Below are positions 21,624 through 24,907 of a stretch of 41,897 nt of DNA, piece after piece. Source of the DNA: a virus. How positions within the stretch are numbered: position 1 is the stretch's first letter; every line of letters starts with the position of its first letter. The DNA is taken from IMG/VR virus record IMGVR_UViG_3300043435_000100, positions 1-41,897 of that record; one strand, 5' to 3'. The notes below the pieces were generated by a model. It was given only the letters and a program-made list of their open reading frames with translations, ran no database searches and was not told the origin of the DNA. Both the position numbers and the translations under genes were made by a program.

Positions 21624-21654
21624 CCAGCCCCGCCCGCCCGATCTCGGAGCATAG

Positions 21655-21686
21655 AAAAAACCCGCCACCCCCGAAAGGGTGACGGG
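21655..21686 (-). terminator. Terminator after the 198-residue gene
   Basis: On the minus strand CCCGTCACCC (21686-21677) pairs with GGGTGGCGGG (21670-21661) with one mismatch, followed by T6 (21660-21655). This makes the 198-residue gene a separate transcription unit. Confidence 0.85.
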
Positions 21687-21702
21687 TTCGATCTTCTAGG
21701 AC

Positions 21703-22299
21703 TTAGGCGGATTTTTTGCCCTTCACTGAGGGATGTCCTGCGCGGACTGAGCCACTGATCGCCTTAACCTTAGCGAGAAAATCTGCCCAGAGTTCAGAAT
21801 CTTTAGGAGTGATGTCCTCAAGATTAGCGAACCCATCCACGAAGTTTTTCAAGAGAGCATCGATCCCCTCAGCCTTAGGAGTCGGAGCCTTCTCCTTAGC
21901 AGGAGTCTCCTCGACAGTCTCAGCGAGATCAGCGAAAGATTGAGCAGTCTCGATCAGCTCAGCAAAACCCTTCTTGCCTAATTTTCTCGTGCCTTGAATT
22001 GTGACATTAATGAGAGACTTAAGAGGCTGATCGATTCCACCAGCGAGAGCGCGAGCCTTCTCAGAGGCTAAGAGATACTGGCAAGAAGTGATCGCGATTG
22101 AAGGAAGCGCGCCGACCTCGTTTATAGCCTCAATAGTAGCCTTAGCACCGCGAACCGATAGAGAGCCAAGGTTTAGACCCTTTAGGAGACTTTCGTAGAT
22201 TTCGACTTCAGTTCCAAGTTCTTTAGAGATTAGATCGACTCCCAATGAAACGATGTACTGGCTTGCTGAGTCCTTCTGATCTAGGTTAATTACTGACAT
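21703..22299 (-). CDS. Hypothetical helical protein (198 aa), separate transcription unit
   Basis: 198 residues from the ATG at 22299, which has a perfect AAGGAG followed by an A-run. The protein is almost wholly helical, rich in Ala/Leu/Ser/Glu/Lys, with a Lys/Pro/Glu hinge near residues 130-145 (PAKEKAPTPKAEG) between two helical domains and a basic tail (RAGHPSVKGKKSA). It is not recognised. The strong ribosome site, own promoter region and own terminator suggest high expression. Palindrome 8 lies 104 nt upstream. It is the most upstream gene of the leftward arm and could be a DNA-binding or regulatory protein, but no helix-turn-helix is evident. Confidence 0.65.
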   Translation of the reverse strand: MSVINLDQKDSASQYIVSLGVDLISKELGTEVEIYESLLKGLNLGSLSVRGAKATIEAINEVGALPSIAITSCQYLLASEKARALAGGIDQPLKSLINVTIQGTRKLGKKGFAELIETAQSFADLAETVEETPAKEKAPTPKAEGIDALLKNFVDGFANLEDITPKDSELWADFLAKVKAISGSVRAGHPSVKGKKSA

Positions 22300-22345
22300 T
22301 TTTTTCTCCTTATCATTCGAGACATTCGCTCGACCTGATAAGAGA

Positions 22346-22374
22346 ATCTTCTCATGGATCAGCACATAAGTCAA
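22346..22374 (-). promoter_or_regulatory. Possible promoter of the 198-residue gene
   Basis: On the minus strand TTGACT (22374-22369), a 17-nt spacer and GAAGAT (22351-22346) preceded by TG give a -35 and a weak, TG-extended -10. It lies between palindrome 8 and the start codon. Confidence 0.35.
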
Positions 22375-22403
22375 ATAGGCTAGGCAAAGAATCTCAGGCG
22401 CGA

Positions 22404-22420
22404 TGTACGATAATCGTACA
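22404..22420. promoter_or_regulatory. Palindrome 8 (TGTACGA-TAA-TCGTACA)
   Basis: Perfect copy 104 nt upstream of the 198-residue gene and 30 bp upstream of a possible -35 element. It is the outermost site on this side. Confidence 0.85.
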
Positions 22421-22508
22421 GCGATCCACGCTCAGCCAGCCAGCCCAGAGCCTCGCCCAGCCTCGCCCAGATAGTCCACCCACACAAACCACGCACCAAC
22501 ACAAACCC

Positions 22509-22700
22509 AAAAAAATCGGCGCTCGCCCCGCAAGCGGGGCTCGCCCTAGACCCTCGGCGGTACTTAAATCGCGGAGCGTTATTAAAAACACGAAGGGGCA
22601 AGCCCCTCTCGACACCCCAAAAGCGCGAATGCGCTCGTCCCTCGCGCTCATCATTCGCCAAAAGACTTCGAGTCGCGTACCCGCGACCCCAGTGCTTATA
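22509..22700 (-). ncRNA. Candidate structured non-coding RNA, leftward
   Basis: No credible gene is seen here. On the minus strand a TATAAT lies at about 22730-22725, and the following 190 nt contain successive GC-rich stems: GTCGCG/CGCGAC (22687-22682 with 22677-22672, 4-nt loop), GCGAATG/CATTCGC (22658-22652 with 22631-22625), GGGGC/GCCCC (22606-22602 with 22599-22595) and GCCCCGC/GCGGGGC (22540-22534 with 22531-22525). The last stem is lengthened by GGCG/CGCC and followed by T7 (22515-22509). Promoter, stems and terminator together suggest an RNA gene. Repeated stop-free frames on this strand look like low-complexity artefacts of GC-rich DNA. No known RNA family is recognised. Confidence 0.45.
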
Positions 22701-23032
22701 ACTCCCGCTGGTCGTATATTATACTATCGCACTACAATATTTTTCCAGTATTTACGGGGGAAATGTCCGTATTAGTATAATAAGTTAGTGAAGTGTATCA
22801 CATTTGCTAATATGTAGCGTTCGGATTTCCGTTTTGAACGGGTTTATATATATAGACGAACGACTCCTACAGAGTGAGTCTATCTTAGATGTGAGTGGGT
22901 GGCTGAGACAGCCGTAGCGATAGCGTAGGCTGGCTTGATGCCAGCCACGAACCCAGGGGTTAGCGAGGCTCGCCTGAGCGAGCCGAGCGATAAAGGGGAG
23001 TTTTATACAAGGGTTTTATTAGAGGAGTTATT
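22701..23032. other. Divergent control region upstream of terminase
   Basis: About 330 bp without a gene. The first part (22715-22865) is AT-rich with TATACT/TATAAT-like sequences on both strands, including TATAAT at 22776-22781 for rightward transcription. The second part holds consecutive GC-rich hairpins: GGCTG-AGA-CAGCC near 22903-22915, GGCTGGC-TTGAT-GCCAGCC (22928-22946) and GGCTCGC-CTGA-GCGAGCC (22967-22984). It ends with the terminase ribosome site AGAGGAG. It may hold the late promoter, a structured leader and a packaging site. Confidence 0.55.
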
Positions 23033-24907
23033 ATGGCTGCCAAGGGCGGTAAAGAGCATCATAATGTAGTTGCTCTCAGAGAAGCCAAGGCAAAAGTCTT
23101 AGACTTTGTACGCCAAGGATTAGAATTAACAGATGCAATTGCAAGGGCTGGGCGTAAACCAGATGTCATGAAACTCTGGCGTCAAGACTCAGCATTCATG
23201 AGAGACCTCGAAAAGGCAAAGACCGAAGGCCAGAAGACTTTAAGTATAGTTACAGGCGATGCCAAATTCAAAATTGGCTTTGAGGAGTTCAGCCGTGAGT
23301 TTCTTGACTCGCCGATCTTCCCACACCACAAGTCTTGGATTGACTTGCTCGAAGGACGGGAACCTTCCTATATTCACCCGTCGATGGTCTATGACCCTGC
23401 CTCTAAGAAGCGTCTGCTTATCAACGTCCCACCAGAGCATGCCAAGTCTACGGTCATCACAGTCAACTACTGTGTCTACCGAATTGCCATGGATCCTAAT
23501 ATTAAGATCACCATCGTTTCCAAGACTCAGGAACGCGCTAAAGAATACCTTTACTCGATTAAGCAAAGGCTAAGCCACGAGCGCTGGTCTAAGTTACAGG
23601 CAGTCTATGGATCTGCAGGAGGTTGGAAAGAGGATGCGGATACTTGGAAGGCTGATCGCATTTACCTTTCTCGTGATTCTACCGAAAAGGATCCGACGGT
23701 GCAAGCGCTTGGAATTGGTGGCCAGATTACTGGCGCCCGTTCGAACCTCATCATCCTGGACGACGTTGTTACGACTTCAAACGCGCATGAGTGGGAGAAG
23801 CAACTTCTCTGGCTCCAGCGAGATGTAGTCACCCGTCTGGGTGATAATGGTAAGTTACTGGTCGTGGGCACACGTATCGCCCCGAACGATCTCTATCGAG
23901 AGATCAGAAGCCCTGAACACTGGACAGGTGGCAAGTCACCGTTCACGTATCTATCAATGCCAGCAGTGCTTGAGTTTGATGATGACCCTGACAAGTGGGT
24001 TACACTCTGGCCTAAGGCTCATATCCCATGGGAGGGCTCAGATGAAGATGTTGTTCCTGACGAGGACGGACTTTACCCCAAGTGGAACGGTGGAGCGCTG
24101 TTCCGTCGACGCAGCGAAGTTAGCCCTAGCGCATGGGCGCTGGTCTATCAGCAGCAAGACGTTCAAGAAGACTCGATTTTTGCCCCTCTCTGCGTACAAG
24201 GCTCAATCAACAGGATGCGAAAACGCGGCCCACTAAAGGTCGGTAGCGCAGGGCATCCTTCTGAGAAGGGTTCCTGGTACACCATCATGGGTCTAGACCC
24301 TGCTATGTCTGGTAATACAGCAGCAGTGGTAATGACTGTAGATCGTAACAGTCGCAAAAGGTACATCCTTGATGTCAATAACATGACAGATCCGACACCA
24401 CAGAAGATTCAGAAGTTAATCCAAGAGTGGGTGGAGAAGTATCGCCCCCAAGAATTACGCATTGAGACTAACGCTCATCAGAAAGCATATGCCCTAGATG
24501 AGGATCTACGCCAGTTCCTAGCCTCAGCAGGGGTTCGGTTCTCTAGCCAGTTCACTGGTAAGAACAAATGGGATACACAGTTCGGTGTAGCAGCCATGTC
24601 AGGGCTCTTTGGAACCATGCGTGGCACATCATTTAATAACGACAACCTCATAGAACTTCCAGCAGTGGAAGGTTCTGAGGGGATTAAGGCTCTTATCCAA
24701 CAGTTGATTACTTGGGAGCCAAACACTAAAGGCAAGACCGACTGTGTAATGGCGCTCTGGTTCTGTGAACTACGCGCCAAAGAAGTAATCACAATCGGTA
24801 GAAGTAATCAGAGCCACATCACCAACAAATGGGCTACTCGTAAACAACAACAAGAACGCTATGTACTCAATGTCAATGACTATGAGTTTGGCGAGGAACA
24901 GGAATAA
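23033..24907 (+). CDS. terL: Terminase large subunit with N-terminal HTH-like domain
   Basis: 624 residues. The ATPase part has PPEHAKST (133-140, a variant Walker A) and LIILDDV (239-245, Walker B). The nuclease part has GLDPAMSG (420-427) and ETNA near 474, with further acidic residues in the C-terminal region (GKTDCVMALWF), as expected of an RNase H-fold nuclease. Residues about 20-65 (GLELTDAIARAGRKPDVMKL, then WRQDSAFMRDLEKAK) look like the helix-turn-helix of small terminase subunits, and no separate small subunit gene is seen. It packages DNA into proheads at the portal. AGAGGAG precedes the ATG. Confidence 0.9.
   Translation: MAAKGGKEHHNVVALREAKAKVLDFVRQGLELTDAIARAGRKPDVMKLWRQDSAFMRDLEKAKTEGQKTLSIVTGDAKFKIGFEEFSREFLDSPIFPHHKSWIDLLEGREPSYIHPSMVYDPASKKRLLINVPPEHAKSTVITVNYCVYRIAMDPNIKITIVSKTQERAKEYLYSIKQRLSHERWSKLQAVYGSAGGWKEDADTWKADRIYLSRDSTEKDPTVQALGIGGQITGARSNLIILDDVVTTSNAHEWEKQLLWLQRDVVTRLGDNGKLLVVGTRIAPNDLYREIRSPEHWTGGKSPFTYLSMPAVLEFDDDPDKWVTLWPKAHIPWEGSDEDVVPDEDGLYPKWNGGALFRRRSEVSPSAWALVYQQQDVQEDSIFAPLCVQGSINRMRKRGPLKVGSAGHPSEKGSWYTIMGLDPAMSGNTAAVVMTVDRNSRKRYILDVNNMTDPTPQKIQKLIQEWVEKYRPQELRIETNAHQKAYALDEDLRQFLASAGVRFSSQFTGKNKWDTQFGVAAMSGLFGTMRGTSFNNDNLIELPAVEGSEGIKALIQQLITWEPNTKGKTDCVMALWFCELRAKEVITIGRSNQSHITNKWATRKQQQERYVLNVNDYEFGEEQE

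Follow-up and report, generated by a model that had tools for sequence, protein, structure and literature searches.

Does the GC-rich stretch between the two divergent transcription units upstream of the large terminase gene (terL) of an uncultivated virus code for a discrete RNA on the minus strand, or are its hairpins part of a leader, a DNA site or a row of terminators? A preliminary description of this DNA had proposed a structured RNA of about 200 nt that is not a leader. The DNA analysed here, called the window, is the complete IMG/VR record IMGVR_UViG_3300043435_000100 (G000), a viral sequence of 41,897 bases.

The virus and its relatives

The window carries genes for the terminase, portal, major head protein, a replicative helicase, an exonuclease, a glycosyltransferase and a WhiB protein as well as a phage sigma factor gene (15983–16687), and this gene set, including WhiB, points to an actinobacterial host. 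In its leftward operon, an amidoligase-like and a class II glutamine amidotransferase-like gene are adjacent (18318–20656, minus strand). The closest named records in the terL search (58%) were OX376641 and OX376640, the Planktophila phages F5 and E7 of PMC10202952; according to that paper, the genomes of LanE43AprE7 and F5 harbor whiB, sigma-70 and glycosyltransferase genes, as does the window.

Relatives were taken from the terL search as the best 80 of 597 related loci, and a second search with the terL of a relative as query recovered mostly the same contigs. Many loci are copies of one contig, so that counts are based on distinct sequences. A DNA word from the promoter region matched 38 stretches, of which six represented one protein-like sequence unrelated to the region and were dropped. 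The other 32 adjoin terL: 31 include terL in the stretch, with the word at -284 to -331, and in the last one (L101) the piece ends just inside terL. A genome scan with a word from the plus strand led to four matches, none with a terminase match and alike only in the word, which we read as chance. Among the collected sequences, HMM searches revealed 237 matches for the minus-strand head and 248 for the plus-strand RNA described below. Thirteen loci with the plus-strand RNA only are contigs, or copies of contigs, beginning within about 300 nt of terL, while L079 and L303 matched in this search with the head only.

The intergenic stretch in the window

Reading of positions 22509–22747 on the minus strand confirmed the elements listed in the preliminary description: four short stems lie between a possible promoter at one end and a hairpin with T7 at the other. 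The T7 (22509–22515) follows the stem GCCCCGCAAGCGGGGC (22525–22540), and further stems are GGGGCAAGCCCC (22595–22606), GCGC..GCGC (22623–22634) and GTCGCG..CGCGAC (22672–22687), with TATAAT at 22718–22723 and TGGAAA 18 nt upstream of it. The GC content of this DNA is about 59%, at which four short stems are not rare, and the fold z-scores of the minus strand were -1.45 (22500–22740) and -1.61 (22509–22711). The fold of the single sequence is thus hardly beyond chance and no proof of an RNA, and single-sequence folding was dropped as evidence since the minus strand is not exceptional. Terminator-like sites were enriched in the surrounding region (21500–23100, both strands), with eight found versus 2.0 expected. 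Coordinates of all features are given in Table 1.

Table 1. Features of the control region and its neighbors in the window
Feature	Position	Strand	Remarks
Next minus-strand gene, 198 aa	21703–22299	-	no PHROG or Pfam match
Conserved DNA element AGATAGTCNNCCNACACAAAC, possible virion DNA end (cos)	22469–22489		conservation and contig ends
Candidate discrete non-coding transcript, about 200 nt	22509–22714	-	predicted; 5' end about 22711–22714, 3' end at T7
Terminator T2	22509–22541	-	hairpin, then TTTTTTT
Terminator-like hairpin T1	22584–22608	-	GAGGGGCTTGCCCCTT, CGTG, TTTTT
P3, two-part helix	22625–22658	-	GCGAAT/ATTCGC outside, GCGC/GCGC inside, GAG-containing bulge
P2 hairpin with invariant GGGTC	22670–22690	-	GGGGTC at 22685–22690
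P1, 5'-terminal hairpin	22701–22715	-	AC-GA-CC/AGC/GG-GA-GU (tandem G.A); Watson-Crick in most relatives
-10 box TAGTAT	22721–22726	-	place of TAGTRT in most relatives; overlaps TATAAT 22718–22723
-35-like TGGAAA	22742–22747	-	sequence reading
GTGA-N6-TCACA palindrome	22788–22802		between the two divergent promoters; in many relatives
Second structured RNA, putative 5' leader of late operon	22816–22998	+	covariation; just upstream of terL
Helix H1	22818–22840	+	
Helix H3	22854–22881	+	
Helix H4	22928–22946	+	
Helix H5	22963–22988	+	
terL, large terminase subunit	23033–24907	+	gene match

Two minus-strand open reading frames of 93 and 86 aa overlap the stretch. Full-length matches to them were found only in the window and its near-identical copies L001, L084 and L317, the next best relative covering 51 of the 93 or 37 of the 86 residues. 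Both overlapping frames match about alike in the relatives, only in fragments and some with stops; therefore, the conserved protein frame that would have spoken against an RNA gene was sought in the relatives and not seen. No Rfam family matched the window at the gathering score, and at E values up to 5 the region 22380–23060 gave CRISPR-DR28 as the sole match (E 0.033, plus strand). A search for an antisense target of the head within the window ended at a longest complement of 10 nt, GC skew gave no clear pattern pointing to an origin, and a description of either RNA was not found in the open-access literature within the terms searched.

A conserved head with a predicted promoter, P1 and P2

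Comparison with relatives gave a clearer picture, as 110 distinct head sequences share one minus-strand unit consisting, in this order, of a -10 box, the hairpin P1, a linker with GGGTC and the hairpin P2, a variable body and sometimes a clear terminator (three loci fell outside the -10 pattern used for extraction, and two of the 110 heads were too short, leaving 108 for the analysis of P1). The head is opposite in strand to terL in all 107 cases with terL in reach, and its -10 box lies 197–333 nt upstream of terL in 106 of them and 763 nt upstream in L062. The box reads TAGTRT in most heads, GAGTGT in some and TAGTAT in the window, and in most relatives it is conserved together with an upstream stretch AATACTG..AAATATT. 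L079 harbors TTATCCACAGG twice on the minus strand upstream of terL, at the place of the minus-strand RNA; we take these repeats to be similar to DnaA boxes.

P1 has at least five pairs in 87 of 108 heads, a length reached by about 20% of dinucleotide shuffles, and in 66 of 80 distinct segments; when the 3' halves were swapped between sequences, 12.3 segments on average and at most 22 reached it in 500 trials. Among 93 sequences with at least four pairs, 58 different stem/loop combinations were found, and P1 appears to be freely rewritten in sequence with its predicted pairing maintained. In all 86 stems of at least five pairs, the first paired base is located 4–7 nt past the -10 box, which is where, judged from this spacing, a transcript would begin. 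Only one G-U pair occurred in 66 stems; therefore, pairing alone neither fixes the strand nor excludes a DNA hairpin, and the strand of the head is set by the predicted promoter, not by P1 pairing. The clade of the window is an exception in which P1 is degenerate. There, P1 reads ACGACCAGCGGGAGU, with CC/GG only, flanked by tandem G.A and AC/GU pairs and thus with fewer than four standard pairs in a row, and the head model matches the window at E 8.2e-6 with the P1 pairs marked broken.

The GGGTC motif is invariant in all 91 aligned head rows. P2 has at least five pairs in 95 of 105 heads (about 35% in the control); its stem is GTCGC/GCGAC in most cases and, for example, GTCGGC/GCCGAC in others. 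A longer P2 with an outer helix looked convincing in L304 and L316, but across the family this extension was not above the control (mean 4.74 versus 4.65) and is not claimed. In 18 register-matched rows, preselected for having P1, 97.0% of the cells were paired with a covariation score of 0.554 versus 0.130 in shuffles, all variation falling within P1 and none within P2, and double changes were seen in 6 pairs, no more than in shuffles (5.8). A plain MAFFT alignment of the 91 heads does not keep P1 in register, so that RNAalifold predicted no pairs from it, and alignment-free tests were used instead.

The reach of the head model is limited: it did not match deeper relatives (terL identity 61–63%) and, up to E 1, found nothing in the Planktophila phages LanE43AprE7 and F5, a difference between these and the window. 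Within the family it misses L061, L196 and L275 and finds L303 only at E 0.19. In L256 and L257, a CUGGGGUC..GACCC hairpin can still be recognized.

Body, terminators and downstream genes

After P2, little is conserved across the family, and P3 is a predicted conserved body helix of the window's clade. It was examined in 23 sequences chosen by their inner loop, including the window, of which 20 form an outer helix of at least six pairs (mean 11.1 and maximum 17 in 500 swapped sets). Counted by columns in the same 23 rows, 78.3% of the cells were paired with a score of 0.213 versus 0.162, and 4 of 500 shuffles scored as high; this count is weaker because registers differ among rows. The covariation check proposed in the preliminary description gave covarying pairs in P1 and P3, and its minus-strand structured RNA with a promoter-like start is supported by the relatives. 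In other points the description does not hold: its list of stems lacked P1, the hairpin with the best covariation, and the conserved body helix is P3 and not GCGCGAATGCGC. The suggested duplication of GGGGCAAGCCCC and GCCCCGCAAGCGGGGC was abandoned, as both hairpins vary among relatives on inspection.

In the window, the next minus-strand gene begins at 22299, behind T1 and T2, so the earlier statement that a terminator parts the RNA from this gene holds there. Across 60 unique regions, a minus-strand terminator was detected in 21 (3.5 in shuffles) and a plus-strand one in 20 (0.25 in shuffles) by the later criterion; a first search, with a stricter criterion for the minus strand, had given 16 and 25 regions, respectively (about 2.7 and 0.7 in shuffles). 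The other 39 regions showed no clear minus-strand terminator by the later criterion, and the RNA may end differently in these.

In a subgroup with 413–433 nt between the conserved DNA element and terL, a plus-strand gene of 132–170 aa ends inside that element in 17 of 22 loci. The remaining five are L264, L282, L287 and L293, in which the frame is absent or shorter (the contig ends early or no frame exists), and L280, in which it is longer. A plus-strand terminator follows this gene in 17 of 20 distinct regions by the first criterion and in fewer by the later one. With this gene behind it, the RNA has no adjacent minus-strand gene there for which it could serve as leader. A minus-strand operon further left was present in all 16 genomes inspected, including those with the intervening plus-strand gene.

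The leftward genes of the window display a repeat of their own. The palindrome GTACGATAATCGTAC or near variants occur at eight sites between 17048 and 22419 (16 matches on the two strands versus 0.05 expected), and five of the eight precede the ATG of a minus-strand gene by about 17–26 nt, a placement expected of an operator or promoter repeat. The exact form was found in 48 of 329 loci.

A second structured RNA before terL

The best-supported candidate RNA of the region lies on the plus strand (Table 1), outside the interval 22509–22730 to which the preliminary description was confined. It begins near the presumed start of the terL transcript and stops shortly before the gene itself. Its alignment comprised 31 representatives of 98 distinct sequences in 222 loci, with 26 loci unparsed by the pattern. 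Within four helices, 98.3% of the cells were paired, double changes occurred in 16 of 27 pairs (10.2 in shuffles) and the covariation score was 0.340 versus 0.122, all slid controls being at or below 0.051; further pair types were not more frequent than in shuffles (27 versus 28.1). H1 is almost invariant. In both H3 and H5, covarying RC/GY pairs enclose an internal GA/GA loop that is conserved. On inspection, the T2 hairpin and the P1 of the window can be drawn in the same tandem GA/GA form, and the consensus of the plus-strand RNA (A2) is unrelated to that of the minus-strand head (A1).

Two tRNA genes are inserted between this RNA and terL in L062, and a short extra reading frame in L079 and L081; therefore, the plus-strand RNA would head the late operon and not terL alone. 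The same interval of L062 (2030–2336) that holds the two tRNA genes also matches the Rfam abiF RNA (RF03085, 45.5 bits, gathering score 37). Weak matches of the plus-strand model appeared in terL relatives at 58–63%, ranging from E 8.9e-6 (L079) to 0.098 (L075), among them phage F5 (L124:2749–2820, E 0.00075). The GTGA-N6-TCACA palindrome of Table 1 resembles a CRP-type site, and both Streptomyces phage WRightOn and L124 have similar sites ahead of their terL genes.

A conserved DNA element and a possible DNA end

The element AGATAGTCNNCCNACACAAAC, conserved between variable flanks, was detected in 77 viral contigs, 413–586 nt upstream of terL in 67, the remaining 10 not extending as far as terL. 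Among 38 loci with short upstream sequence, four from four different metagenomes have their first base exactly at CACAAAC, another two start 9 and 13 nt ahead of it and all others at different places, in counts that include loci not confirmed as true contig ends and leave out nine loci obtained with a query that contained part of the plus-strand gene. On the opposite side (38 loci examined of 63), the end of L132 coincides with the matching place, L155 ends nine bases past the first C of CACAAAC, and most others overrun the place or end elsewhere. The 41-kb relative L017/L151 has overlapping ends, as in a circular assembly. Altogether, conservation and contig ends suggest a possible physical virion DNA end (cos) near AGATAGTCNNCCNACACAAAC. 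Immediately to the right of CACAAAC, close to where the window has its hairpin, L302, L005, L267, L013 and L319 display CGAACA..TGTTCG-like palindromes, which are similar to actinobacterial LexA boxes.

A small RNA or a structure acting in cis

Conservation of the unit, its pairing, its position beside terL, its promoter spacing and the lack of a conserved coding frame are observed in the relatives. A 5'-terminal hairpin, a P2 bearing GGGTC and a terminator together form the anatomy of a stable small RNA. We favor a discrete small RNA of about 130–200 nt, which would be stable and act in trans, and assign this reading a probability of about one half. As expected of a small RNA gene, it appears to have its own promoter, to judge from the conserved -10 box with its upstream stretch and the fixed spacing of P1, and pairing is conserved in P1 and P3, apart from the outer helix of P2. 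Starting in the divergent control region of this family of actinobacterial viruses, the transcript would be read leftwards, and P1 at its 5' end could protect that end and stabilize the RNA. The invariant GGGTC strand would then be displayed inside P2, as a contact for a protein or RNA partner, followed by the variable, hairpin-rich body (with P3 in the window's clade) and an end at an intrinsic terminator. Transcription, both ends, stability, the partner and action in trans are what we infer from sequence comparison.

The main rival is a cis-acting leader, in which P1 and P2 act on the elongating RNA polymerase as in HK022 put, or serve as an attenuator, and thereby decide whether it gets through the terminators and into the leftward genes. 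Two hairpins right after a promoter, followed by terminators, correspond to the layout of putL as outlined in PMC9378689, the plus-strand transcript likewise opens with a structured RNA, and the minus-strand operon further left in the 16 genomes could be what is gated. Against this stand the convergent gene that precedes any minus-strand gene in most loci of the 413–433 nt subgroup, the unlikeness of the two divergent RNAs, in contrast to putL and putR, and the palindrome before five leftward genes, which may thus have a control site of their own in the window. The earlier assertion that the RNA is not a leader is supported for the subgroup as far as an adjacent minus-strand gene is concerned, and overall a leader seems doubtful to us. 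Next comes a role of the hairpins as DNA, extruded or bound at a packaging start (cos/pac) or replication origin with an incidental transcript. Strict adjacency to terL, the conserved element with its contig ends and the near lack of G-U pairs in P1 would fit such a role. The fixed distance of P1 from a conserved -10 box on one strand, its free sequence, in contrast to a protein site, and the enrichment of terminator tails on the minus strand argue against it, and we regard it as unlikely.

It is quite improbable that the stretch is only a stack of terminators and a GC-rich spacer insulating the divergent units, with no RNA function of its own: T1 and T2, the terminators on both strands in relatives and the ordinary fold energy of the window agree with this reading, which leaves the promoter-locked P1, the invariant GGGTC, P2 and P3 unexplained. 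By analogy with the pRNA of phi29, a small RNA transcribed next to terL in the direction of the DNA end might even join the terminase or portal as a packaging RNA, with the plus-strand RNA as a counterpart controlling terminase synthesis. We know of no packaging RNA in tailed actinophages, and this version of the small RNA is a long shot.

If the favored reading of a small trans-acting RNA is true, the main control region of a family of actinophages known mostly from metagenomes, and distantly related to the first phages isolated on 'Ca. Nanopelagicales', holds two structured RNAs that are arranged back to back and lack an Rfam match. One of them, the leader heading the late operon on the plus strand, shows very strong covariation. 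As both RNAs are constant neighbors of the terminase gene, roles in late-gene switching or packaging are directly testable.

Comparison with known RNAs

The phi29 pRNA is encoded near the genome end, and Rfam holds a phage pRNA family. Like it, the candidate is a short non-coding phage RNA, here next to the terminase gene and possibly close to a DNA end as well; unlike it, the RNA of the window has no Rfam match, the DNA end is only putative, and a packaging role would be analogy alone. GOLLD is linked to phages and far larger than the RNA of the window, which differs from it also in having no Rfam match. Both are structured RNAs of aquatic origin, GOLLD being described (PMC12286853) as a large, ornate RNA from lake samples; the carriers of the present RNA are viruses of freshwater bacteria, namely actinophages.

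The likeness to HK022 putL is one of layout. Unlike in putL, P1 is freely variable here and one subgroup has no minus-strand gene directly following, and similar elements on both divergent transcripts, as for HK022 put, were not found, the plus-strand partner being dissimilar. According to PMC9378689, putL comprises two stem-loops at the start of the leftward phage transcript, just past the promoter, and P1 and P2 are likewise two stem-loops at the presumed start of a transcript, here with terminators following.
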